Shown: one piece after another, positions 8,682-63,421 of the stretch
How positions within the stretch are numbered: position 1 is the first letter of the stretch
How the letters are laid out: each line of letters opens with the position of its first letter
Origin: Zymomonas mobilis
GTDB lineage: Bacteria > Pseudomonadota > Alphaproteobacteria > Sphingomonadales > Sphingomonadaceae
Reading direction: 5' to 3'
DNA: 64,000 nt
Assembly (NCBI RefSeq): GCF_006715975.1
Contig: NZ_VFOF01000001.1
Coordinates: 1,250,001-1,314,000, forward strand
Position numbers and translations under genes: made by a program
Notes under the pieces: model-generated
What the model was told of the DNA's origin: nothing
Seen by the model: the letters and a program-made list of their open reading frames with translations, nothing else
The model's database searches: none

Positions 8682-9347
8682 TTACCGGCTGGTCGGGCGA
8701 CGAGCGGCCGGAGGAACAGAAGCATTAGAAGCAGGTGTAGCAGAACGAGCAGCCGGTGCGGCTGCATCATTCTGAGCGTTCTGACGTTCGGAAGCCGGAA
8801 CCCAGTTGGCGGGCGGCGTGATAGAAACGGTCGTGATACGACGGTTCAGATCAGCGGCCACGTCTGACGTAATATCAGCAGACGGATCGGCCAGAATAGC
8901 ACTCTGCGGGTTAAGAACCAGATTGACCTTACGCAGAGTCATCACGCTACGCACAGATTCTTCCATATGGTCAGTAACCTGTTCTTCGGCATAGGTATTC
9001 GGACGAATGAACGGCATACCAAGCGTCATTAATTCACGCTGTGCGGCCTGCTGTTTTGCCTGAAAAGCGTTAACTTTCGGCTGCATAAGCGCCATTGAAG
9101 TGCCGCTTTTTTGTAGCTTCATGAGCTCATCACGCATCTGTGATAATTCGGTTTCCAGCGCAACACGACGATTATTATAAGCGTCAATCTGCGTACGATA
9201 GGTTGCCTGAATTTGGGTCTGAGCCTGTTTCAGAGCCGATGACTGCGTCAGAACACCCTGAAGATCTACAACAGCAGCGGATTGCGCCAAGACCGGGGTG
9301 GCTGTTACGGCAGCGATAAGGGCTGCACCGGCAAATAATTTCTTCAT
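8682..9347 (-). CDS. skp: OmpH/Skp-family periplasmic chaperone
   Basis: Periplasmic holdase that keeps unfolded outer-membrane proteins soluble on the way to BamA. A signal peptide occupies residues 1-21 ([21 protein letters not shown], cut before Gln22). Residues 24-60 form the beta-core strand with VVDLQGVL, and about 60-110 is the long charged coiled-coil arm rich in Gln/Glu/Arg. A low-complexity Ala/Pro/Ser tail ends the 221-residue protein, which is longer than E. coli Skp. The start ATG overlaps the bamA stop by one base (TAATG), indicating translational coupling with its functional partner. Confidence 0.85.
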
Positions 9348-12300
9348 TAAAATGCTGTCCCTACGTTGAAGGTTACAAGTTTTTTATCATCACCAGGCTG
9401 ACTGACAATAGCTTTAGCAATATCAATCCGGAAAGGACCAAATGGCGAATTCCAGTTCACACCAAAACCAACCGAAATACGAGGTTTCCAAGTATCCCCT
9501 AAGAAATATTCTTTGATGGGTGAAACAGAAGTCGTAACTGGGGTATTTCCTGTAGCACTAGTTGTATAGTTACCGCTGCTATCTGTATAGAGGGCTTGTC
9601 CCTTGGAATTGGTCACCTGACGTGCCGTTACAGCACATTGACCTTGGGCTTTCCCTGATGAACCGCAACTATCAATCAAAGCCGGTTTCGGCACGCCCCA
9701 GACAGAACCGATATCAGCAAAAATGGACGGTCTCAGCCCCATTTCACGGGCGCCTGCACCCATTGGGATTTCCAATTCGGCATGACCCAAATATTCTTTG
9801 GTACCACCGAGTGAGTCATCGGAAGATTCACCACCAAGGCTGGCATTGCCGCTATCATCAAAAGAATAATAATGACGGGTCACACGAGGCCCGACACCAC
9901 GGAAGTTAAACCCGCGGAACTGTGGTTGCCCCAAGAAGAAACGGTCAATCAAACGGACATTGCCATCATAGCCCCAGATATATCCGGCTTCACCACGCAG
10001 TGAGAAGACGAACCCTCTGGTCAAATTCCAGTATTTAGCCGCTTCGATCCGAGTTTTCAGATAATGCACCGTTCCACCAAGACCAGCAAAATCCTGACTG
10101 AAAGTGAACCGGGCACCGGAGGTCGGATGCATAATATTGTTCAGGCTGTTATAGGCGATAGAATAGCCCAAGGTCGAGTTAACCCATGACCCCAAAGCTT
10201 CGCACAAATAACGTCCAGCCAATAACGGGTCGCATTGGCCGTTTGTATAATAACTGCTTTTGCTGATCTTCACCGTTTCATAGCTGATACTGTAGCGCAA
10301 AAGCAGGTTTAAATATTCGGTAATAGGAATACCGGCGCGCAACTGAAGACCGGTAGAAGCCTGTCGATAGGTCGTATTACGATCCGTACCGTTCATGTAG
10401 TTAAAGGCGTTATAATCGTTCCGGAAAATATCGCCACCAAAGGCGATCGCATGATCAAACAGATAAGGTTCTGTAAAACCAAGATCGACTGATTTGGAAT
10501 AATAAGACCAGTTAGCCGAAGCGCGGACGCTCTGGCCTTTACCCATGAAGTTGTTCTGTTGGATAGAAATATCCAGAAGAATACGTTCAAGGCTGGAGTA
10601 ACCAGCGGAAACAGAGAGCTGCCCTGTCGATTTTTCTTGAAGATTGGTATCAAGAATCAAGCGATCTGGCGTTGATCCCGGCCGCTGGGTGATTTCAAGC
10701 TTATCCTGAAAGAAGCCCAAAGACTGCACGCGATCGCGAGAGCGTTTAACCCGCAACAGGTTGAACACGTCACCTTCGGCCAAACGGAATTCACGACGGA
10801 TCACTTTATCGCGGGTCGTGGTGTTACCGCTGATATCAACCCGTTCGATATATTGGCGTGGGGCTTCTGCGATGCGGAATTCGATACCCATCGTCAGATT
10901 GTCTTTATCCGGTGTGAAATTCGGATTCACATCCGGCGTATAGCCCATAAGACCAGCCGCCTCGGTCAAGGTATCAATCGTATCTTCAACCTGTTTGGCG
11001 TTATACCACTGGCCTTTTTTGATTTTCACCAAGGATTTGAAGTTGTCGGCCTTCACATCACGAATTTGGGAATCCAGCGAAACATCACCAAATTTGTAAC
11101 GGTCACCTTCTTCAACGACATAGGTAATGATGAAGTCGCGGCGATCAGGCGTTAATTCTGCGATAGCGGAAACAACGCGGAAATCGGCATAACCATTAAC
11201 CAGATAGAATTGCCGTAATTTCTGTTGGTCATAGGCCAATTTATCGGGATCGTAGCTGGCGCCAGAACTCATAAAGCGCCAGAGACGGGACTGTTTCGTC
11301 GCCATAACTTTTCTAAGCTGGGCATCAGAAAACTGTTTATTCCCGATCACGTTGATCTGGCGGACTTTTGATTTTGGCCCTTCTGTGATTTCGAACACGA
11401 TATCGACGCGATTTTGTTCCAGCCGAACCATCTTCGGTTCAACGGTAGCGGCAAAGCGCCCTTGCCGTCGATAGAGTTCGATGATGCGGGAGACATCAGC
11501 ACGTACCGCATCACGGGTAAAAATCTGTCTTGGGGATAATTTGATTTCAGGCCGAATTTTATCTTCTTTAAGGCGCTTATTACCTTCAAGAACAATACGG
11601 TTGATAATCGGGTTTTCGTGGATTTGAAGGGTCAGACTACCCGGGTTATTCGGATTGTCTTCGATAACAACATCAGAAAACAGCTGCGTCGCATATAAAT
11701 CCTGAATAGCGGTATCCAACACTTCAGAATTATAACGCAGCCCGGCCTTCAGCTTGGTATAGGAGAGCACCGTATCCGGTTCGAGACGTTCTGTCCCGAC
11801 AACCGCAAGCGATTTAATCGTGCCTTCAAAGGGCTTCGCAACAACCGGCGTGGCCGCTGGTTCAGGCGTTTCCGGTTCCGCTTCTGCGGCGGCTTGAGCT
11901 GCGCTATCCTGCTGGGTTGACTGCGCCGCTGCCGTATTGGCAGCGGGTGCATCAGCAGGTGTTTTAGATTCTGCACCACCGGTATCGGCAGTTGCCGCGG
12001 CGTTATTAGCATCTGTTGTCGTTGCGGCTGGCGTTTCCGGATTAGCCGCGCCAGAAGCATCGCCTGCCGGTGCATCAGTATTTGTCTTGGAAACGGCTTT
12101 TTCAGCATCCGAAGCTGCATTATTTGCAGTCGATGCGGCGCTGTTGCCGGTAGCTTCGGTGATTACCGTTTTGCTGTTTTTCTTTTGATCCTTAAGCGCT
12201 TTTTTAGCCGCTTTAGAAAGTTTCGCCTCAGCTTTTTTTACCGCTTCTGTCGCATCCGTTGCCGGATTGGAAACCGTAGTAGCAGCGTCGCTAACAGTCG

Positions 12301-12529
12301 ATTGTGCTGATGTCGTTGCATCAACGGCTGGTGCCGTTTCATTATTGGTAAGATTGTTATTACTGGCCTGTTCCGTTTGGGAAGGTGCCAGATCAGAAAC
12401 TGTCTGAGCCTTTAGTGGGATCGCGGTCGTTCCCATTAAAGTGCTTAAAATGACAAAGGAAGCCAAAGGCATATTCTGCCGGCTACGCCGATTATTATGA
12501 TCAGAATTACCCAAATTGCGCGCCGTCAC
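9347..12529 (-). CDS. bamA: Outer-membrane protein assembly factor BamA with long N-terminal extension
   Basis: Central Omp85 channel of the BAM complex that inserts beta-barrel proteins into the outer membrane. Signal-like segment MPLASFVILSTLMGTTAIPLKA, preceded by a basic RRSR stretch. Then comes an unusual Ala/Thr/Asn/Glu-rich low-complexity stretch of about 190 residues (DNA 11828-12406). Five POTRA repeats follow (first begins IKSLAVVGTERLE), then the 16-strand barrel with the Omp85 lock motif QFRGFNFRGVGPR and the C-terminal strand LVTFNVGTAF. Two extracellular loops carry cysteine pairs. At about 1060 residues it is about 250 longer than a typical BamA. The longest frame begins with TTG at 12619; I prefer GTG at 12529 (AGAGG upstream, basic n-region kept). 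ATG at 12472 would lose the positive charges. Confidence 0.93.
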   Translation of the reverse strand: MTARNLGNSDHNNRRSRQNMPLASFVILSTLMGTTAIPLKAQTVSDLAPSQTEQASNNNLTNNETAPAVDATTSAQSTVSDAATTVSNPATDATEAVKKAEAKLSKAAKKALKDQKKNSKTVITEATGNSAASTANNAASDAEKAVSKTNTDAPAGDASGAANPETPAATTTDANNAAATADTGGAESKTPADAPAANTAAAQSTQQDSAAQAAAEAEPETPEPAATPVVAKPFEGTIKSLAVVGTERLEPDTVLSYTKLKAGLRYNSEVLDTAIQDLYATQLFSDVVIEDNPNNPGSLTLQIHENPIINRIVLEGNKRLKEDKIRPEIKLSPRQIFTRDAVRADVSRIIELYRRQGRFAATVEPKMVRLEQNRVDIVFEITEGPKSKVRQINVIGNKQFSDAQLRKVMATKQSRLWRFMSSGASYDPDKLAYDQQKLRQFYLVNGYADFRVVSAIAELTPDRRDFIITYVVEEGDRYKFGDVSLDSQIRDVKADNFKSLVKIKKGQWYNAKQVEDTIDTLTEAAGLMGYTPDVNPNFTPDKDNLTMGIEFRIAEAPRQYIERVDISGNTTTRDKVIRREFRLAEGDVFNLLRVKRSRDRVQSLGFFQDKLEITQRPGSTPDRLILDTNLQEKSTGQLSVSAGYSSLERILLDISIQQNNFMGKGQSVRASANWSYYSKSVDLGFTEPYLFDHAIAFGGDIFRNDYNAFNYMNGTDRNTTYRQASTGLQLRAGIPITEYLNLLLRYSISYETVKISKSSYYTNGQCDPLLAGRYLCEALGSWVNSTLGYSIAYNSLNNIMHPTSGARFTFSQDFAGLGGTVHYLKTRIEAAKYWNLTRGFVFSLRGEAGYIWGYDGNVRLIDRFFLGQPQFRGFNFRGVGPRVTRHYYSFDDSGNASLGGESSDDSLGGTKEYLGHAELEIPMGAGAREMGLRPSIFADIGSVWGVPKPALIDSCGSSGKAQGQCAVTARQVTNSKGQALYTDSSGNYTTSATGNTPVTTSVSPIKEYFLGDTWKPRISVGFGVNWNSPFGPFRIDIAKAIVSQPGDDKKLVTFNVGTAF

Positions 12530-12655
12530 CCGATTATTGCCCTCTTTCCAGAAATGACACCCGTTTTTCGGTTGTCTTCTTTTTGTGATGGAACTGCCAT
12601 CACCCCACCCCCTAAACAAACACTGATGATATTCGATTTATAAATCGATTTTATT

Positions 12656-32091: not shown

Positions 32092-33366
32092 ATGATTGTT
32101 TCTGAAGCGAATTTTGATGGTTTGATCGGCCCGACCCACAATTATGCGGGGTTATCTTTAGGGAATGTCGCCAGCGCCCTTCATGCCGGTCAAGCGTCTT
32201 ATCCGCGCCAAGCGGCACTTCAGGGACTGCAAAAAATGAAAAGCCTGATGGATATGGGCTTAACCCAAGGAGTGTTTTTGCCGCCGTTACGACCTGTAAC
32301 CGGTTTACTTCATCATATTGGCTACAAAGGTGATGATAAAACCATCCTGACGCAGGCCGCCAAAGATGATCGGCAATTGTTCAACAATCTTTGCTCGGCT
32401 TCTTCTATGTGGGCAGCCAATGCCGCAACCGTTATTGCGGCGCCCGATAGTGATGATGGCCGTGTTCATTTTATAGCGGCTAATCTTGCAACGATGCTGC
32501 ATCGCCATCTGGAAGCGAAAACCACCTATAATCAACTGAACCAGATTTTTTCGAATAGCTGCTTTTTCGCTATTCACCATCCCCTACCTTGTGGCCAGCA
32601 TTTCAGTGATGAAGGTGCCGCCAATCATATGCGGATTACCTCGGCACATTCTAACACCGGCTTGAATATTTTTGTTTATGGCGAAAAAAATGACGTTTTT
32701 CCGGCAAGACAAAAATTACGCGCAAGTCAGGCTGTTGCCCGATTGGGTGAAGTAAAGTCAGATCAGACATGGTTTATTCCACAGAATAAAGAAGCCATTG
32801 CCAAAGGCGCTTTTCATAATGACGTGGTCGCGGTTGCGAATGAATATGTCTTGTTGGCACATGCCGAGGCTTTTGAGAATCAAGGCGAGTGGATCGACCG
32901 CATTTCTCAAAAAATTGATGGCTTCATCCCTGTTATTATTGATGACATCACGCTCGAACAGGCCGTTAAAAGCTATTTATTCAACAGCCAGCTCGTCACT
33001 TTAAAAGACCGCACAATGGCACTTATTCTGCCTCGGGAAGTAAAAAATGATCCGGCTGTCTGGGAAACCGTAAACCGCATTATCGGTGGCAACAATCCAA
33101 TCAATAAAGCAGTCGTGGTTGATGTGCGTGAAAGCATGTCCAATGGCGGCGGCCCAGCTTGTTTGCGATTGCGCGTGCCTTTATCAAAAAGCGCATTGGC
33201 TGCTGTTGACCAGCGTTACATCCTTAATAATGAAAGATGGGAAAAGCTTTGCGAGCTGGTCGAAAACTTCTGGCCTGAAAAAATTACACCTGATGATCTC
33301 GTTGCGCCTGAATTATGGAAAAGCGCGGTCAGAGCACATTGGGCTCTGACCAGCTGGTTGGGCTAA
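32092..33366 (+). CDS. astB: N-succinylarginine dihydrolase AstB
   Basis: Pentein-fold hydrolase of the arginine succinyltransferase (AST) catabolic pathway; it turns N2-succinylarginine into succinylornithine, two ammonia and CO2. FDGLIGPTHNYAGLSLGN at residues 7-24, FNNLCSASSMWAANAATV, the catalytic HSNTGLN region and the C-terminal SMSNGGGPACLRLRVPL with the nucleophilic cysteine are present. Start at ATG 32092 (AAAAGG upstream), 424 residues; the longer frame begins with TTG. No other ast genes (astA, C, D, E) are in the window, so the pathway is either dispersed or incomplete. Its stop overlaps the tamB stop tail to tail by four bases. Confidence 0.92.
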   Translation: MIVSEANFDGLIGPTHNYAGLSLGNVASALHAGQASYPRQAALQGLQKMKSLMDMGLTQGVFLPPLRPVTGLLHHIGYKGDDKTILTQAAKDDRQLFNNLCSASSMWAANAATVIAAPDSDDGRVHFIAANLATMLHRHLEAKTTYNQLNQIFSNSCFFAIHHPLPCGQHFSDEGAANHMRITSAHSNTGLNIFVYGEKNDVFPARQKLRASQAVARLGEVKSDQTWFIPQNKEAIAKGAFHNDVVAVANEYVLLAHAEAFENQGEWIDRISQKIDGFIPVIIDDITLEQAVKSYLFNSQLVTLKDRTMALILPREVKNDPAVWETVNRIIGGNNPINKAVVVDVRESMSNGGGPACLRLRVPLSKSALAAVDQRYILNNERWEKLCELVENFWPEKITPDDLVAPELWKSAVRAHWALTSWLG

Positions 33367-36300
33367 TAATCCTTGGAATAACGCAGGCTGACATTGGATG
33401 ACCCGAAACTGCTCGCTTCACTCAGGAGCGACAGGGTTCGGGTCAAAGATATTCTAATCTGGGTCGCCGTAAAGCCATGCGTATCGGTGATGACTTCCAT
33501 ATAAACATTTTTGAAAAGATATTTCCCAGCGGCCAAGGATGTTCCTTGGCCAGTCGAACTATTCGCCCCAACCACTCGTAAACGATCAATGCCGATCACC
33601 GAACGAAGCTTATCGAGTGGATCAAAGCCTTTGCCTCCTGTGCGAAGCGTATTCAACGCTGCCGCCAATTGTACTGCCTGCACTGCAGACAAGCTCGTCA
33701 CCGAAGAACCGAAAAGCAAGCGTGACAGGATTTCATCCTGTGCCAAAGAGGGCGACGAAGAAAAGGTGATTTCCGGTCTATTCGCAAAGCCGCCGATTTT
33801 CACCGTAGCTGTGATATCGTCAACCGTGGCTTCGGCAGTAATATCCAATGCCGGATTGGGAGGATTCCCGCCGGTAAACTGAATTTCACCATGATCTATA
33901 TCGAAACGCCGTCCGGCAAAGGTATAGGTTCCCCGAATGACCCGCATGTCACCCGTAATATTGGGGGATGTTGCCGTGCCTCTGACCCGCAAATCGGCTT
34001 GCCATTCGGATTCCAGCCCCATACCAGCAACAAATAACTGTTCAGGGGCGCTGATGCGAATATCCAGCTTCCATGCAGAGGCCAACATCGGCGGTGAATT
34101 GGTCGCCTCATTAGAAGCCGCGGTTTCAACCGCGCCTTTCCGCTTCACACCAGATAAATCATGAACGCTTTCTTTGTTATCAAGGATAAAGCGATAACGG
34201 GTTTCAGGCAGATTTAATTTCCCCTTGATAGAGCCACCTTCTTTGGCATTACTCTTAATATCAAGGTTACCCGAAACTGTTGACTTCATCTGATCCGCAC
34301 GGGCAAGTGTGGCTTTATCCAAGGTGATATTCAAAGTTGAATCATAATCACTGGCCGCATCAAGGCTGGCATAGCCTTTGGCTGAAACAGTACCTTTTCC
34401 GGCCTTCCCTGTCATTTTATCAAGGAAGAATTTTGACTGATCGAAATGGCCGTCAATATCAATAGAGGATACCAAGGTATCGTAGGCGCTGTTTTCATAA
34501 CGAAGCGAACGACCACGGATTAACCCTGTTAAAACAGGTGCATCGAGTTCACCGGTAATATCGGCGGCAACGGCCAAAGGCCCTCTTATCGATTGACCAC
34601 TGACACCACTCATCGACCATAAAATATCGGCATCAGCGTTATAACGGATACCGCCGCTTAAACGCCCCTTCAAAAGGGCATCTATCCAATCGGGTTTGTG
34701 CTGTTTTTCTGGAGCATAATTCGGCGTTATACCTAAACGCATTTGCCCGATCATGGCTTGATTTTGGCGAATAACGGCTTCTGAAACTAAACCGTTTTTG
34801 TCATGGGTTGCCACCATCATCAAATCAACCGGTTGAGACAATCCGGTAATCGAAGCCCGTGTAAAATGGTTCAAGGCTAAACGCGCAGAAATCAACGGCA
34901 CATTACCCGTTAAATCAGCATTGGCAATCGCTGACAGCTGACCACTTAAATTAGTCTCAGGCCATAAAAGATTGGCTTCCGATAAATCAATATCGGCGAT
35001 CTGCATCGCGGCATAACTATTTTGACCACCATAATGGCCGGATAAATCAATATGGCCTTTGGGAAGCTGGATAACCACTTTCGATATATCATAGCCGTTT
35101 TTATCCGAGCGAATTTCGACGGGCGCTGCCATATGCCAATTTAAATGGGCGACGTTACCTTGGGCATTCGCCCGCACCAGATTTTCATCAAAACTGCTAT
35201 GCAAAGCAACATTAAATGGAATGGGTGTCGTACCACCCACCGGTAAATTGCCTTGCAGGGTAAGGCCGGCTTCACCTTGATTTTTTTGATAAAGAACGCG
35301 ACCAGCGGTTTGCTTCAATAAAAAATTATTATAGCGAATATTGTTGAGTAAAGCTTCGCCTTGGAAAACTGGATTGGCAGAAAAGACCGCCTTTCCTCTT
35401 AACCGACCGCTTTCGATATCAATGGCTTGACCATAGGTAAAACGGGCTTTCTCTAGGGTAATGTCGGCATTGACCGCCTGATTGGCCTGATCTTCTGTTA
35501 AGCGGATAACACCGTCTAATCCGCGACCATTCAGCTCGAATTGCCCCATATATAGGCTATTCTTCGTCTGAGCCAGATTACCGTTAATCGTCACGCCCAA
35601 AAGATTGGCCTTGATTAACGGATGGGTAAGGATACCTCCGACATCAAGGGTCATAGCACCATAGGTTTTTGAATTACCCCGAACAAACAGGCTAATATTG
35701 CCCTTTGGTTGATAGGCACCATTTCCATCCAGATGAAATTCCGGTGAAACAAGGCTAAATCTTGGCATTCTTATGCCACCAACGGCATTGGCAATGACAT
35801 CTGCCCGTAAAACGGCTTCGCCACCAAAGGCTTTCTTTAATGCTGGTTTCTGCCAGTCACGCCCCGTCAAAGTCATTTGACCGGCCATGCCAAATTCACC
35901 GTTTTTCTCCGGTTGAAGGTGGCTGTCTATCGCCAAACTCAAGCGACCAACGCCATCTACTTTATAGGAATCAATGCCGCCTTTAATTGCCGCCCGCCAT
36001 TTTTTGCTAACAAAGTCAGTAATGACTGTCGTATTCGCATGGATATAACGGCTGCTGATATTGCTATGGTCGATCCGTAAAATATGGTCGCCATAATTGA
36101 TGGCACCTTCGACTTTTAAATTTTCCAGCAGATTGACCAGACGGGGGTCAAGGCCGGTGATTTTTCCGACGGACAAGCCCATAGGCATCGATAAACGGCT
36201 ATCGTCTATCAACATTTTGCCTCTGGCTTGAATATTTTCTACCATTTTACCTTGCCAGCCAATCTGGCCAGCATTTAAGCGCCAATCAATAGTCGGAGAT

Positions 36301-37556
36301 CGGATAAGGCCTGAAAGAACCGAAGAAAAAGCGAATTTTTTTAAGGATAAATCATCCAAAAAGAAATTCCGACCATTCGGGATATCCAGATTGACGCTCA
36401 TATTATTGAAGCGGCTCGTTTTCCAATCAATACCGCCCAAAGCCGTAAACTGGAACATCTCTCCAGAAACCGCACTACGAATATCTACAATATTTTTGTT
36501 GCTATGAGTGGTCAGATCAACCTGTAAGCCTTTTTTGAAAAAGGCTTGTATCGAAGCCGGCTGATCAGCCAATAATTCGGCGGGATAAACCGCACCAGCA
36601 AGATGAACAGCACCATTTCTGTTATGAAGTTGCCAGTCTAACAGTTTTTTATCGCCTGATTGTGCCTGAATATAACCGCGCCAATCCTGCCAATTTCCTT
36701 TTCCGGCGGCATCCATAATCAGCGGCTTACCCAAATGGGTCAGCCCATCAACAACCCCTCCAACGGGCGCATTTAAATGCGCATCTACAACCAAAAGATT
36801 GGCAGCAGGCTTGGCATCAAATTGTAAAGATAGGGTATCTCCACCACTAATGCCCTGCCCTTTATCCGCGCCAGCATTGGCTTTGACCGTAATTTGCCCC
36901 CGTATCAAAGCCAGCCGTCCATGCATGTGCAAACGGTGGTTTTGCCCATCCAGATTTTTTGAAATATCAATTCGGTCTAAATCAATCCGGTCGATATCCA
37001 GATGGATATTCGGCAAAAGAGGTGCGTTCGGATCTGATTTTGTCGGCTTCATTTCCGGATTACGGAGCAATCCGACCATCGGCGCATGAAGCGTCTTTAT
37101 CGTAATAATGCCGTAGCGATAATCCAGCGGATGCCATTCTACGAAAAGCGATGGCATATCAAGAAAACGGCCATGCTGGTCATAGGCTTTAACATCAATC
37201 AAGCGGAATGCCTGATAAATAGACCCATCAATCCGTTTTAATTTAACTTTTAGACCAGACTCTGTTGTATATTTATTGATATAATGAACAATGATCCGAT
37301 GCCCGACGGCCGTATCCAAAAATACGACTAAAGACGCTACCACCAGCGCCAATCCCGCAAGGCAAACGCTGCCCCACCCCAAAATAGATTTCAAATTCCG
37401 AAGGGGTGAAAGTGAATTATCAGAAAGGGCGGACTCTTCGGCCTCTTCAATATTAGCCTTAGTTTCCGTTTCTTGTAACTGTGCGGCGGCATCCGGATTC
37501 TGTACATTATTAGAATCCGAATTCGGTTTTTCTGAATTGTTATCCTGATCAGCCAT
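33363..37556 (-). CDS. tamB: Translocation and assembly module inner-membrane subunit TamB (DUF490/AsmA-like)
   Basis: Very large protein that spans the periplasm from the inner membrane to TamA and is implicated in outer-membrane protein insertion and phospholipid transport. An acidic cytosolic N-terminus of about 55 residues (Asn/Asp/Glu-rich) precedes one membrane helix (residues about 62-84). About 1,200 residues of repeated beta-strand, groove-forming sequence follow, and the diagnostic C-terminal DUF490 domain (GDMRVIRGTYTFAGRRFDIDHGEIQFTGG onward to the end). 1,397 residues from ATG 37556; the frame can be read one codon further from TTG. The start shares one base with the tamA stop (TGATG). 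Convergent overlap with astB at the 3' end. Confidence 0.9.
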   Translation of the reverse strand: MADQDNNSEKPNSDSNNVQNPDAAAQLQETETKANIEEAEESALSDNSLSPLRNLKSILGWGSVCLAGLALVVASLVVFLDTAVGHRIIVHYINKYTTESGLKVKLKRIDGSIYQAFRLIDVKAYDQHGRFLDMPSLFVEWHPLDYRYGIITIKTLHAPMVGLLRNPEMKPTKSDPNAPLLPNIHLDIDRIDLDRIDISKNLDGQNHRLHMHGRLALIRGQITVKANAGADKGQGISGGDTLSLQFDAKPAANLLVVDAHLNAPVGGVVDGLTHLGKPLIMDAAGKGNWQDWRGYIQAQSGDKKLLDWQLHNRNGAVHLAGAVYPAELLADQPASIQAFFKKGLQVDLTTHSNKNIVDIRSAVSGEMFQFTALGGIDWKTSRFNNMSVNLDIPNGRNFFLDDLSLKKFAFSSVLSGLIRSPTIDWRLNAGQIGWQGKMVENIQARGKMLIDDSRLSMPMGLSVGKITGLDPRLVNLLENLKVEGAINYGDHILRIDHSNISSRYIHANTTVITDFVSKKWRAAIKGGIDSYKVDGVGRLSLAIDSHLQPEKNGEFGMAGQMTLTGRDWQKPALKKAFGGEAVLRADVIANAVGGIRMPRFSLVSPEFHLDGNGAYQPKGNISLFVRGNSKTYGAMTLDVGGILTHPLIKANLLGVTINGNLAQTKNSLYMGQFELNGRGLDGVIRLTEDQANQAVNADITLEKARFTYGQAIDIESGRLRGKAVFSANPVFQGEALLNNIRYNNFLLKQTAGRVLYQKNQGEAGLTLQGNLPVGGTTPIPFNVALHSSFDENLVRANAQGNVAHLNWHMAAPVEIRSDKNGYDISKVVIQLPKGHIDLSGHYGGQNSYAAMQIADIDLSEANLLWPETNLSGQLSAIANADLTGNVPLISARLALNHFTRASITGLSQPVDLMMVATHDKNGLVSEAVIRQNQAMIGQMRLGITPNYAPEKQHKPDWIDALLKGRLSGGIRYNADADILWSMSGVSGQSIRGPLAVAADITGELDAPVLTGLIRGRSLRYENSAYDTLVSSIDIDGHFDQSKFFLDKMTGKAGKGTVSAKGYASLDAASDYDSTLNITLDKATLARADQMKSTVSGNLDIKSNAKEGGSIKGKLNLPETRYRFILDNKESVHDLSGVKRKGAVETAASNEATNSPPMLASAWKLDIRISAPEQLFVAGMGLESEWQADLRVRGTATSPNITGDMRVIRGTYTFAGRRFDIDHGEIQFTGGNPPNPALDITAEATVDDITATVKIGGFANRPEITFSSSPSLAQDEILSRLLFGSSVTSLSAVQAVQLAAALNTLRTGGKGFDPLDKLRSVIGIDRLRVVGANSSTGQGTSLAAGKYLFKNVYMEVITDTHGFTATQIRISLTRTLSLLSEASSFGSSNVSLRYSKDY

Positions 37557-39826
37557 CAAAAAGCCTGACCAATAGAAATATAGACCGAAATACGCGATTC
37601 TCCGGATTGCCGAGCGATAGGTGTTGCAAGATCAAGGCGGAAAGGGCCAAATGCGGTATAGTAACGCGCGCCTAAACCTGTGCCAAATCTTAAATTATGG
37701 AAGGTTGGAAGCGAATCTTGATAGACTTGCCCAGCATCAATAAAAGGCACCAACCCAAAATTACCGAAACGATACCGCACTTCAAAAGCCAGTTCTTCTT
37801 CCGACAGGCCTCCAACGGCATCTTTATAGGGATCCTTTGGCCCTAATTGCTGATAGCCATACCCACGAACAGAGCCGCCGCCACCGGCATAAATCCGGCG
37901 AGAAGGCGCCAATTGCTGAACCGAAGCCCCTTCGATTGAGGCTACCCTAACACGACCAGCTACAACCACATTATCCGCAACCGGATAATAGCCACTCGCG
38001 TCAAAAAGCATTCTGACATAGCCGCGCAGCCCAGAACCAATTGAAGTTTCAGGACTGATACGCATATTCAAGCGGTAACCTTTGGTTGGATTCATCAGAT
38101 TATTTGAACGGTCATACCCCACTTGCCCTGGCAAGGCCGCGATCAAATAGGAACGCGTTAGCCTTTCAGCACGGGAAAAGTCATAGCTCCGTTCGTTGGT
38201 CTGCGTTAATTCCGCTCCAATAGAATAAGTCCAGCGCTTTTGCCATAACTGGGTGGATTGCCGCGACAAGCTCCCCCCCAAAGAAAAACTGTAACCATTA
38301 TAGGCATCATATCTTTCACGGCCAGCCGTCAATCCAATTTGGATAACGCGATCTCGTTGTCCAGCATTATTGCGATTAAATAAAGCCGAAACCTGTTGTT
38401 GACGCGTTCCAATAATACCAGAGAAAGTCAAAGAACCTTCTGGCGGGAACCGATTACGACTAATCCAGCTTCCCTGCGCTTTGAAACCTTCGCCCGTACC
38501 ATAGCCGCCGGTAACTGAAATACTATGCTTTTTTCCCTGACCTTGACGGACATTAAGATCAACAATTTCGCTACCATCCTCCCGTTTTCGCCCCGTAGCG
38601 ACAGGTTCAACTGACACATGAGAAAAAAGGCTTGTTGCAGCTAAAGCCTCGCGCAGATCATCAACCATCCGGCTGTCATAGCGCTGGCCTTCTTTGAAGC
38701 GCGCGATATGCGAGATGTGTTCAGCACCAAGGATAATATGCTTATTATTGCTGACGATAATTGAACCGTAAGAACCAATGGGGCCGGCATCAACGGGCAA
38801 TGTATAATCGCCAGTATGCGTTTCATCATCCAACAGAATATTGCGATCATCAATTTTGGCAAAGGGATAGCCATAATGCGGCAAAGTTGTCAGAATATTA
38901 TTCTCGGCCTGTTCTATGTTGAGAGCAATAATCGGCTGACCTGAATGTAAATTTAAAGCGACTTTTGCTATATTGAGAGGAATTTCGCTACTACCCGTCA
39001 GATTTATCTGACCAAGGCAATATATTGTCCCCGCATTGACATCATAGCGGACATTATACTGCCCTTTTTCTATGGGCGTAATAGAAAGCGCGGCTTTCCC
39101 ATCATAATAGCCTTGAGACCGTAGAATACGGCCAATCAATTCCTGATCATTAGTCGCTCTGGCACCAATAACGGACAAACTATCGGCTTTATTTTTGCTC
39201 GATAGTAACACAGAATAATTTTTGAAAGCTTGATCGACATCAATGTCATTAAGCCCTTTGACATCGACTTTATAGCGAAGATCATCCTTTTCTTTTGCAA
39301 GGACGACATGCTCATTCATATCCGGCATAAAATGGGTAAGATCAGGCAAGGGTTCGGATAATACCGGATCAAGAGGCACAGATGTAATCGGTACCTGTTC
39401 TTTTACAGGATTTCCTGCCTTTTTATTATCAGTCGGAATGTCTTTCCGAGCCGGAGCGGGCTGCCCTGCAATATCCGTTTTTTCAGATGGTGTTACGCTA
39501 TCCTTAGCCACCGTCTTTTCTGTATCGGGCGCTACGGGTTGTTCTATTTTATCTAAACGAACAGCCGTATTTCCAGCTTTAGCTGCGTTCAGATTATTCT
39601 GAATTTCTGCTTTAGGCGCTTCTATGGCGGGTTGTGACAAAGTGGGTAATTTGTCAAAAAAAGACGGATCAAAAGGGTCATTAAGATTATTCGGCGCAGC
39701 CGGTTTAATATCTGGATCTTTACTGGTTGCAGATAATTCTTCAGCGCAGGCTGAAAAGGATATCAACCCGACAGAGATTAAACATATTCGATGTATCGAC
39801 CGACACAGATTGCTTTTAGAGGGCAT
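37556..39826 (-). CDS. tamA: Translocation and assembly module outer-membrane subunit TamA (Omp85 family)
   Basis: Omp85 protein partnering TamB. N-terminal hydrophobic segment (residues 11-27, ICLISVGLISFSAC) is a signal peptide; the Cys after SA could be a lipidation site, though its -3 residue is unusual. A Pro/Lys/Asp-rich linker to about residue 165 follows, then POTRA domains (VDVKGLNDIDVDQAFKNYS onward). The barrel carries the Omp85 motif YAGGGGSVRGYGYQQLGP and a C-terminal strand RISVYISIGQAF. 756 residues, longer than usual because of the linker. ATG overlaps the stop of the kinase gene (TAATG) and its stop overlaps the tamB start, so the whole unit is translationally coupled. Confidence 0.9.
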   Translation of the reverse strand: MPSKSNLCRSIHRICLISVGLISFSACAEELSATSKDPDIKPAAPNNLNDPFDPSFFDKLPTLSQPAIEAPKAEIQNNLNAAKAGNTAVRLDKIEQPVAPDTEKTVAKDSVTPSEKTDIAGQPAPARKDIPTDNKKAGNPVKEQVPITSVPLDPVLSEPLPDLTHFMPDMNEHVVLAKEKDDLRYKVDVKGLNDIDVDQAFKNYSVLLSSKNKADSLSVIGARATNDQELIGRILRSQGYYDGKAALSITPIEKGQYNVRYDVNAGTIYCLGQINLTGSSEIPLNIAKVALNLHSGQPIIALNIEQAENNILTTLPHYGYPFAKIDDRNILLDDETHTGDYTLPVDAGPIGSYGSIIVSNNKHIILGAEHISHIARFKEGQRYDSRMVDDLREALAATSLFSHVSVEPVATGRKREDGSEIVDLNVRQGQGKKHSISVTGGYGTGEGFKAQGSWISRNRFPPEGSLTFSGIIGTRQQQVSALFNRNNAGQRDRVIQIGLTAGRERYDAYNGYSFSLGGSLSRQSTQLWQKRWTYSIGAELTQTNERSYDFSRAERLTRSYLIAALPGQVGYDRSNNLMNPTKGYRLNMRISPETSIGSGLRGYVRMLFDASGYYPVADNVVVAGRVRVASIEGASVQQLAPSRRIYAGGGGSVRGYGYQQLGPKDPYKDAVGGLSEEELAFEVRYRFGNFGLVPFIDAGQVYQDSLPTFHNLRFGTGLGARYYTAFGPFRLDLATPIARQSGESRISVYISIGQAF

Positions 39827-60258: not shown

Positions 60259-60296
60259 AAAAACGGGATAGCAAAACGCTATCCCGTTTTTGTTTT
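60259..60296. terminator. Bidirectional terminator between moeB/thiF and topA
   Basis: Perfect 14-base stem AAAAACGGGATAGC (60259-60272) / GCTATCCCGTTTTT (60278-60291) with a 5-base loop, with T-runs on both strands. It sits right at the topA stop and about 120 bases after the moeB/thiF stop. Confidence 0.92.
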
Positions 60297-63271
60297 TATT
60301 CTGCCGGTTCGTTTTTTGCGGCAGGTATTTTGGACGCCGCCGCCTTTTTGGTGGTGGTCTTCTTGGTTGTGGTTGCCTTTTTAGCAGCAGGCTTCTTCGC
60401 GGCGGGTTTCTTGGCGGGGCTAGTTGAAGCCTCGCTCGCTTCCGACGCATCGGCATCGGAAGTTGCCGCTTTTTTAGTTGCTGTCTTTTTAGGGGCAGCT
60501 TTTTTGACCGTAGTCTTTTTGGCTGCAGTTTTCTTGGGGGCGGCCTTTTTGGTTTTTTTCTTTTTAGGCATCTTGGCGCGGGCTTCTAGCAGTGCCAAGG
60601 CTTCTTCAAAGGTGATGCTTTCGACCGTGCTGTCTTTGGGTAAAGAGGCATTAGTTTCGCCATCGGTGACATAGGGACCATAGCGACCGTCCATGAGTTG
60701 AACCGGCTTTTCTGTGACCGGACTGTCACCCAAAACCTTCAAAGGTTCGCGCGATGATGTCGCACCGGTACGACCCTTATTTTTCGCCGCTTCGGCCAGT
60801 TTTACAACAGCCTTGCTGATGTCGATGTCCAACAGCTCTTCAGTTGAGGACAAACGCGCATATTTGCCGTCACAATTCAGATAAGGGCCATAACGTCCGG
60901 TACCAGCGATAATCATTTTACCGCTTTCGGGATGGAGGCCGATCTCTCTTGGTAAGGACAGCAAGCGGGTAGCCAAAGAGAAATCAACTTCCCGTGGATT
61001 GACATCGCGGGGAACGGAAACGCGTTTAGCCTCTTTCCCTTCGCCAAGCTGGATATAGGGCCCAAAACGTCCTGTCCGGCGGGTGACTGCCCTTTCCTTG
61101 CGGGCTTCGTCTTCCTGCTTGGCCTGAGCCTCTTGGCGGCTATTTTCTCTCTGTTCGGCTGTGGCCGTTTTGTCTTCGCTATCAGCGTTGGGGACAGAGA
61201 TCTTTTTCGTGGCAGGATCAGGATCAAAAGGTAGGTCTGTGGCTAAGGCCGCATTACCGGCAGAAGCGCTTTCCTTTTGATCTACCTTATCCGAGCCGCC
61301 GTTATTGTCGGCGTTTTCGTCTTCGGCATTTTCAGGGAGATAACCGAGAACGACCGGTTCGTTATCGTCAACGCCGTCTTCACCCTGTCCAAAGCCGCGC
61401 GTATATTTACATTCGGGATAATTGGAACAGGCGATAAAGGCTCCGAAGCGGCCGCCTTTCAGCGCAAGGCGGCCTGTATGACAGGACGGACATTCGCGCG
61501 GGTCGTGGCCGTCCCCTTTATCAGGGAATAACCAAGGTTCGAGGAATTTATCCAGCTCTGCCGTGATCGCAGAAGGCTGTTGTTCCATGACTTCGGCGGT
61601 TTTAGGTTTGAAGTCATGCCAGAAAGCGTCGAGCACTTTTTGCCAATCAGCCCGACCGCCGGAAATGTCATCAAGGCTATCTTCCAAGCCCGCCGTGAAG
61701 TCATAGCTGACATAGCGTTCAAAGAAGCGTTCGAGGAAAGCGGTCAGTAACCGTCCGGCTTCGCTCGGAATAAAGCGGTTCCGTTCAACCGTGACGTAAG
61801 AGCGGTCTTTTAGAACCTGAAGCACAGAAGCATAGGTCGAAGGGCGACCGATGCCCAAATCTTCCATTTTTTTGACCAAGCTTGCTTCTGAATAACGGGG
61901 CGGCGGTTGGGTAAAATGTTGATCGGCTTTGACTTCTTTTTTCAAAGGCGCATCGCCTGCCCGCAATAAAGGTAAACGGGCGCGGCCTTCTTTACCGTCA
62001 CGATCATTGCCAGAAGCGTTGTCGTCGGCGCTTTCTTCGTAAAGAGTCAGGAAACCCGGGAAGAGAACGACCTGTCCCGTGACGCGGAGAACATTTTGTC
62101 CCGTGCCGTCCGTCAGATCAACCGTCGTCCGTTCCAGCCGAGCCGAGGACATCTGACTGGCAAGAGCGCGTTTCCAGATCAGTTGATAAAGACGGGCGTG
62201 ATCGCCGCTGGCAGCTTTATCACGAGAGAAATCGGTCGGACGAATGGCCTCATGCGCCTCTTGGGCGTTTTTGGCTTTGACCTGATATTGTCTAGGTTTT
62301 TCAGGAATGAAGCCGCCGTCATACCGTTCGGTAATGGTTTTTCGGGCAGCGGCAATCGCGCCTTCATCCATCTGCACCCCGTCCGTCCGCATATAGGTAA
62401 TCAGCCCTTCTTCATAAAGGCTTTGCGCGAGACGCATCGTATGACTGGCAGCGAAGCCAAGCTTGCGGGCGGCTTCCTGTTGCAGGGTTGAGGTCGTGAA
62501 GGGTGGCTGCGGATTACGGGAAACCGGTTTGGTTTCGACCTGCGAAACCGTGAACTGTCCGGCCTCGACATCGGATTTGGCGGCTTCCGCTTGCGCTTTA
62601 TCGGCAATCGACAGCTTTTCAAGTTTGTTACCGCGCCATTGGATAAGCCGCGAAGTGAAGCTGATGCTGTCCGCTTCCATATCGGCTTCAACCGACCAAT
62701 ATTCTTGCGGTTTGAAGCCTTCTATTTCCTGTTCACGGTCAACGACCAGACGCAAAGCGACTGATTGCACCCGTCCGGCGGATTTGGCGCTGGGTAATTT
62801 CCGCCATAAAATCGGGGATAAGGTAAAACCGACCAGATAATCCAAGGCGCGGCGGGCAAGATAGGCATTAATCAAGTCGTTATCGAGTTGACGTGGATGC
62901 GCCATGGCATCGGTAACGGCGGGTTTGGTAATGGCGTTAAAGGTCACCCGTTCGACATGATCGGGTAATAATTTCCGCGTCTTTAACAATTCCATGACAT
63001 GCCAACTGATCGCTTCCCCTTCGCGGTCAGGGTCAGTGGCGAGGATCAGACTGTCAGATTCTTTGACGGCATCTTCAATGGCCTTCAGGCGGTGCGCCTT
63101 GTCAGGATAATTTTGCCATACCATGGAAAAGCCATTGTCGGGATCGACGGAGCCGTCTTTGGAAGGTAAATCCCGGATGTGACCATAGGAGGCCAGCACC
63201 TGATAGCCAGGTCCGAGATATTTTTCGATAGTTTTGGCCTTGGCCGGTGATTCGACAACAACGAGTTTCAT
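60296..63271 (-). CDS. topA: DNA topoisomerase I with lysine/alanine-rich tail
   Basis: Type IA topoisomerase that removes negative supercoils. TOPRIM domain at the start (MKLVVVESPAKAKTIEKYLG; ATDPDREGEAISWH), and the active-site Tyr293 is in LITYMRTDGVQM. One clear zinc ribbon CPSCHTGRLALKGGRFGAFIAC with C-x4-C follows at about residue 590. Next come an acidic Asp/Glu/Asn linker and several degenerate topo C-terminal repeats (GRFGPYIQLGEG; GRYGPYLNC; GRYGPYVTDG). The last approximately 100 residues are a histone-H1-like array of AAPKK, KKTAAKK and PAAKK repeats. 991 residues from ATG 63271 (AGGAG upstream); a longer frame to 63295 has no support. Neighbour dprA is usual for alphaproteobacteria. 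Confidence 0.96.
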   Translation of the reverse strand: MKLVVVESPAKAKTIEKYLGPGYQVLASYGHIRDLPSKDGSVDPDNGFSMVWQNYPDKAHRLKAIEDAVKESDSLILATDPDREGEAISWHVMELLKTRKLLPDHVERVTFNAITKPAVTDAMAHPRQLDNDLINAYLARRALDYLVGFTLSPILWRKLPSAKSAGRVQSVALRLVVDREQEIEGFKPQEYWSVEADMEADSISFTSRLIQWRGNKLEKLSIADKAQAEAAKSDVEAGQFTVSQVETKPVSRNPQPPFTTSTLQQEAARKLGFAASHTMRLAQSLYEEGLITYMRTDGVQMDEGAIAAARKTITERYDGGFIPEKPRQYQVKAKNAQEAHEAIRPTDFSRDKAASGDHARLYQLIWKRALASQMSSARLERTTVDLTDGTGQNVLRVTGQVVLFPGFLTLYEESADDNASGNDRDGKEGRARLPLLRAGDAPLKKEVKADQHFTQPPPRYSEASLVKKMEDLGIGRPSTYASVLQVLKDRSYVTVERNRFIPSEAGRLLTAFLERFFERYVSYDFTAGLEDSLDDISGGRADWQKVLDAFWHDFKPKTAEVMEQQPSAITAELDKFLEPWLFPDKGDGHDPRECPSCHTGRLALKGGRFGAFIACSNYPECKYTRGFGQGEDGVDDNEPVVLGYLPENAEDENADNNGGSDKVDQKESASAGNAALATDLPFDPDPATKKISVPNADSEDKTATAEQRENSRQEAQAKQEDEARKERAVTRRTGRFGPYIQLGEGKEAKRVSVPRDVNPREVDFSLATRLLSLPREIGLHPESGKMIIAGTGRYGPYLNCDGKYARLSSTEELLDIDISKAVVKLAEAAKNKGRTGATSSREPLKVLGDSPVTEKPVQLMDGRYGPYVTDGETNASLPKDSTVESITFEEALALLEARAKMPKKKKTKKAAPKKTAAKKTTVKKAAPKKTATKKAATSDADASEASEASTSPAKKPAAKKPAAKKATTTKKTTTKKAAASKIPAAKNEPAE

Positions 63272-63421
63272 GATACTCCTGACCATTCCGCGCAATTTAC
63301 GTCGGAGAGTGAGCCTTTTTTTCCATTATCAAAGGAAAAAAACCTTTGAAAAAATTATTAAGAAACAATGTTTGATCTATTCTCTATTCGCGGGGCGGAG
63401 TTGAAAGCAACAAAAAATCAT

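Follow-up and report, generated by a model that had tools for sequence, protein, structure and literature searches.

BamA is an essential protein and, as a rule, a strongly conserved one. E. coli BamA (PDB 5d0o) is homologous to Zymomonas BamA in its POTRA and barrel portions, with an alignment that starts at Zymomonas residue 237, but the match begins already at residue 25 of the 810-residue E. coli chain, which has no extension. The BAM complex of Caulobacter is described as BamA, BamB, BamD and BamE together with Pal, which binds peptidoglycan (PMC2797634), and as also including BamF (PMC3359395). Nearest to Zymomonas are the BamA proteins of other genera of Sphingomonadaceae, which have the same order of signal peptide, Ala/Pro-rich linker, five POTRA domains and barrel, and are 52–63% identical to it (27 loci).

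Here we analyze bamA in a 64,000-nucleotide stretch of the Zymomonas mobilis genome (the window), taken from an assembly of 2.10 Mb in 7 contigs. Where the ends of two small contigs of this assembly were compared with database records, every matching record was a Zymomonas plasmid (16 of 16 and 46 of 46). In Zymomonas the tip of the POTRA arm carries 190–330 low-complexity residues, which makes the protein a natural test of how free the POTRA end is in BAM and of how important its reach is. Should the residues prove to be a dispensable spacer, they would amount to no more than a plain example of linker growth. Among titles and abstract openings of the open-licence literature we found no paper on a BamA extension of this kind.

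Structure of the bamA gene

The bamA coding sequence occupies positions 9347–12529 of the reverse strand, stop codon included, and encodes 1060 residues when read from a GTG start and checked against Pfam. The signal peptide (residues 1–41; 12407–12529, reverse strand), delimited by inspection and by its conservation among four species, has a long basic n-region and is probably cleaved between PLKA and QTVSD, a site set by eye. It is followed by an extension of 192 residues (42–233; 11831–12406, reverse strand), recognized by its composition and free of Pfam matches. Five POTRA domains with approximate boundaries start at residue 234 (10553–11830, reverse strand), as indicated by PF07244 matches in five stretches and by alignments with BamA structures; BamA chains in the PDB that include the complete POTRA arm begin to align at about residue 230–239. 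The Omp85 β-barrel comprises about residues 660–1060 (9350–10552, reverse strand; PF01103, E = 1.8e-62). The extension ahead of the first folded domain is therefore real and correctly located: the preliminary description, made from the window alone, had reported about 190 low-complexity residues between signal peptide and POTRA1 in a protein of about 1,060 residues, and its coordinates agree with ours to one codon, with the GTG at 12529 giving 1060 residues.

In a mechanical list of open reading frames the bamA frame opens at a TTG, position 12619. This TTG is not a conserved start, because in genome G002, one of the other Zymomonas species examined, the frame opens just one codon upstream of the same GTG. 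A probable ribosome-binding site, GAGGG, lies 10 nt upstream of the GTG (12540–12544, reverse strand). The GTG, the GAGGG and the signal peptide are kept in all four Zymomonas genomes examined, so translation starts upstream of the extension. Pairwise identity of the signal peptide is 78–100%, with dN/dS of 0–0.35; Met20, in this region, is replaced by Arg in G002.

Directly downstream of bamA is the gene for a Skp/OmpH chaperone (8682–9347, reverse strand; PF03938), whose product ends in a tail that is rich in Ala, Pro and Ser and also contains several Arg residues. From the translated reading frames, we take the gene after skp to be fabZ and those before bamA to be rseP and dxr.

Composition and predicted structure of the extension

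The extension consists of 28% Ala, 15% Thr, 9% Ser, 8% Asn, 7% Lys and 7% Pro and is devoid of Cys, Phe, His, Met, Arg, Trp and Tyr. Its best 100-residue stretch is 99% A/T/N/D/E/P/K/S/Q/G, compared with a median best window of 64% for the 53 open reading frames of the window, and by this measure it is the most extreme sequence among them at all three window sizes tested, followed by the C-terminal tail of topoisomerase I and the linker of TamA. Low complexity was thus rightly noted in the preliminary description, whose listing of Ala, Thr, Asn, Asp, Glu and Pro needs amendment, as Ser outnumbers each of Asp, Glu and Pro. A Pfam search of the extension returned no domain match and no known peptidoglycan-binding domain, and we rejected a hidden domain on this basis. 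GCA makes up 17 of the 53 alanine codons of the extension and 5 of the 52 in the folded part of bamA, so alanine codon bias is weaker in the extension.

Within the extension is a Lys/Ala-rich patch (residues 89–120; 12170–12265, reverse strand) with a net charge of +7 across residues 102–121, the net charge of the whole extension being –10. A full-length AlphaFold model, built on an alignment of three sequences, scores poorly over almost its whole length (mean pLDDT 34.5); in it most of the extension has pLDDT 22–28, and residues 89–120 form a helix at about 38–51. Because the whole model is poor, the low values are weak evidence of disorder. When residues 42–315 were folded alone with no alignment, a long helix appeared at residues 68–149, with pLDDT up to about 85 near the patch; POTRA1 itself is poorly modeled in this run, so we read it as indicating a helix at the patch and nothing further. 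Both predictions suggest that the Lys/Ala patch is probably α-helical, and composition, together with the low AlphaFold confidence, supports a mostly disordered, periplasmic extension. The earlier proposal of a disordered periplasmic segment before POTRA1 with a Lys-rich patch thus survives in the main, except that the patch, which is present, is probably helical. Domain II of TolA is also an Ala/Lys-rich, probably helical periplasmic segment, but TolA sits in the inner membrane and has a folded domain at its C terminus, and the Lys-rich part of Zymomonas BamA is limited to about 30 residues, which one species lacks.

Divergence and constraint within Zymomonas

We compared the source genome (G000) with one genome from each of three further Zymomonas species (G001, G002 and G003), the G003 gene being cut by a contig end. 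All four have the extension, with 192 residues in the source genome, 202 in G001, 334 in G002 and 205 in G003. It has diverged fast: identity between species is 33–39%, rising to 82% in the closest pair, G001–G003, whereas the folded part stands at 88–96% and 99%, respectively. For G001–G003, dN/dS is 0.36 (bootstrap 0.22–0.61) in the extension versus 0.02 in the folded part available.

Much of the G002 extension (L008, 945–1736) is a tandem array of an in-frame 108-bp unit present 7.3 times with 96% matches. Full copies differ at 0–5 of 108 positions, and the array is therefore young. A repeat search of the source genome's own extension revealed no tandem array, just two weak two-copy repeats, and we rejected a repeat origin for it; duplication is demonstrated for the G002 array alone. 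The Lys patch has positional counterparts in G001 and G003, and across these three species its amphipathic moment is 0.42–0.58. No counterpart is present in G002, whose 334 residues include 3 Lys and no Arg and have a net charge of –41. By eye, no short motif is conserved across the four extensions.

Composition behaves differently from sequence. In a simple neutral model (GC 46%, kappa 2), the extension was allowed to drift by each pair's synonymous distance, with stop codons avoided and otherwise no amino-acid selection, in 500 runs for each of four comparisons. The mean numbers of order-promoting residues (CFHIMLRWY) in the simulated sequences were 34.5, 35.0, 65.1 and 57.9, versus 12, 11, 5 and 11 observed, and in each comparison none of the 500 runs was as low as observed; synonymous distance is near saturation for the distant pairs, and the closest pair yields the same answer. 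Judged from these sequence comparisons, the composition of the extension is constrained and its sequence is not. It is poor in order-promoting residues and is maintained so, as would be looked for in a disordered linker. The constraint may reflect a function or merely the avoidance of harm.

Linker length outside the genus

A search for BamA matched 58 of 59 genomes, source genome included. Among them were 30 Sphingomonadaceae genomes of other genera, from which we used 28 loci, excluding G010 and G015, whose genes are broken, and added two further loci (L005 and L086). In these 30 loci the linker between signal peptide and POTRA1 is 13–40 residues long, versus 192–334 in Zymomonas, with cleavage sites set by a simple script whose error may reach about six residues. 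In other families of the order it is 0–22 residues in the 17 measurable loci of 18 (24 genomes searched). In this comparison of Sphingomonadales BamA, a check of the kind called for in the preliminary description, the long extension sets Zymomonas apart from its family. One additional BamA resembling those of Sphingomonadaceae, with a linker of 33 residues, comes from a contig of a metagenome-assembled genome labeled Pirellulales (L004); it is probably mis-binned and was left out.

Across the class we drew 115 genomes, of which 110 matched, the source included, and inspected 16 loci, including all others with an open frame of at least 860 residues. Most of the other long frames are upstream read-through. 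Linkers of at least 100 residues occur in two of the 109 other genomes, L090 (171 residues, TPSGY-rich) and L095 (101 residues), although genes broken by contig ends could conceal more; L094 has about 70 residues by eye where the script, having mis-set the cleavage site, gave 7. Like Zymomonas BamA, the L090 and L095 proteins carry low-complexity residues between signal peptide and POTRA1, but their sequences are unrelated to the Zymomonas extension, which points to an independent origin. Long BamA linkers in the class thus appear to be rare and to have arisen independently.

Partners of BamA in the source genome

Family searches matched BamD, BamE and DUF3035 (BamF) in the source genome, along with four OmpA-domain proteins, one of which is Pal-like with a lipobox and one OmpA-like. 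The BAM machine looks complete, judged on the BamD, BamE and BamF families and Pal. We rejected the idea that the extension compensates for a lost BAM subunit as far as these three families are concerned, all of which were matched, and likewise the idea that it replaces a lost wall anchor, with Pal and OmpA both encoded in the genome. The BamD of the source genome (L120) has a low-complexity C-terminal tail of roughly 80 residues.

Possible functions of the extension

On balance we favor reading the extension, which is genuinely part of the secreted protein, as a mostly disordered flexible spacer that is constrained in composition and has no specific partner. Its presence in all four genomes, despite rapid change in both sequence and length, suggests a flexible spacer more than a specific binding domain. 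Its starting point in the Zymomonas lineage was probably the short Ala/Pro linker that relatives have ahead of POTRA1, lengthened in at least one species through tandem duplication of in-frame units. After cleavage of the signal peptide the extension would project into the periplasm from the free end of POTRA1, an exposure expected from the topology of BamA. Selection would maintain solubility, flexibility and a scarcity of bulky residues, and would disregard sequence, exact length and charge. Most likely it is such an entropic bristle or spacer, which would act as a non-folding leader in export and keep the POTRA arm off its neighbors. Several observations count against this explanation: (i) The extension has at least 190 residues in all four species, so that length itself may be needed. 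(ii) Three of the four species retain the Lys/Ala patch at the same place, and it looks helical, features that a pure random coil would not need. (iii) The single-sequence fragment model turns residues 68–149 into one long predicted helix.

In one alternative, the Lys-rich helix would hold BAM in a set position relative to the wall or the inner membrane by binding to a periplasmic partner, to anionic lipid or to peptidoglycan. The +7 charge over 20 residues, the amphipathic moment in three species and the predicted helix are consistent with such a tether, and Caulobacter BAM, for which Pal is described as the link to the wall (PMC2797634), indicates that a tie could be useful in principle. However, the basic patch is not conserved among the orthologs, being missing from one species of four, whose extension is strongly acidic; the extension contains no known peptidoglycan-binding domain in Pfam; and Pal and OmpA are both encoded in the source genome. 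A Lys-driven peptidoglycan tether is therefore unlikely as a conserved function. The preliminary description had proposed binding of peptidoglycan, partner lipoproteins or the inner membrane, and this proposal fares poorly both for the patch, given the G002 sequence, and for tethering to the wall or a partner, since with Pal, OmpA and BamD/E/F-type subunits present nothing obvious is being replaced. We give tethering a small probability and do not favor it.

We attach a similarly small chance to the idea of a functional periplasmic brush, in which length would be tuned by tandem-repeat change and bulk, not sequence, would set the seating of BAM between the outer membrane, the wall and the inner membrane.

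The extension might instead serve as a disordered arm that briefly keeps newly made outer-membrane proteins, or chaperones such as Skp and SurA, close to POTRA1. Its position at the POTRA1 tip would suit this role, and Skp and BamD of the source genome have low-complexity tails too, but there are nearly no hydrophobic or aromatic residues for contact with a substrate and no conserved short motif seen by eye across the four species, which leaves the idea improbable. A little more doubtful again is unselected growth, with slippage inserting in-frame sequence that nothing takes out. The tandem array in one species, the less biased Ala codons and the very rapid divergence all fit such a process, whereas dN/dS below 1 (0.22–0.61) and the strong avoidance of order-promoting residues argue against it, although both could reflect only the avoidance of harm. 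Finally, a start downstream of the low-complexity stretch, the finding that would have undone the preliminary description, has nothing in its favor except the unusual length of this BamA and can be dismissed, given the GTG, ribosome site and signal peptide conserved four times out of four, the frame that stays open through all four extensions and the lack of a signal peptide in any protein begun later.

TamA and other low-complexity segments

The window also encodes TamA (37556–39826, reverse strand), identified by Pfam and linker comparison, with tamB following it (33363–37559). Its linker, at about residues 30–180 (39287–39739), has about 150 residues, and long TamA linkers are also found in other genera of Sphingomonadaceae. 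Motifs resembling LSxPLPxLxxF occur in 9 of 30 TamA-like loci and motifs resembling EFxxx(L/I)PxL in 5 of 30; within Zymomonas the counts are three of four and none of four, respectively. Judging by sequence, these short motifs may be docking motifs. Neither was found in any of 53 BamA loci, and we rejected a motif shared by the two linkers. The suggestion in the preliminary description that the two Omp85 proteins share a habit thus holds insofar as both have a linker, but the linkers are not of the same kind, that of TamA being family-wide with motifs and the length of that in BamA specific to the genus. A third Omp85 protein, TamA-like, is encoded elsewhere in the genome (L002; G000:C1:606973-607845). 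The low-complexity C-terminal tail of topoisomerase I (60296–63295) has a weak, below-cut-off match to the histone H1-like HC2 family.
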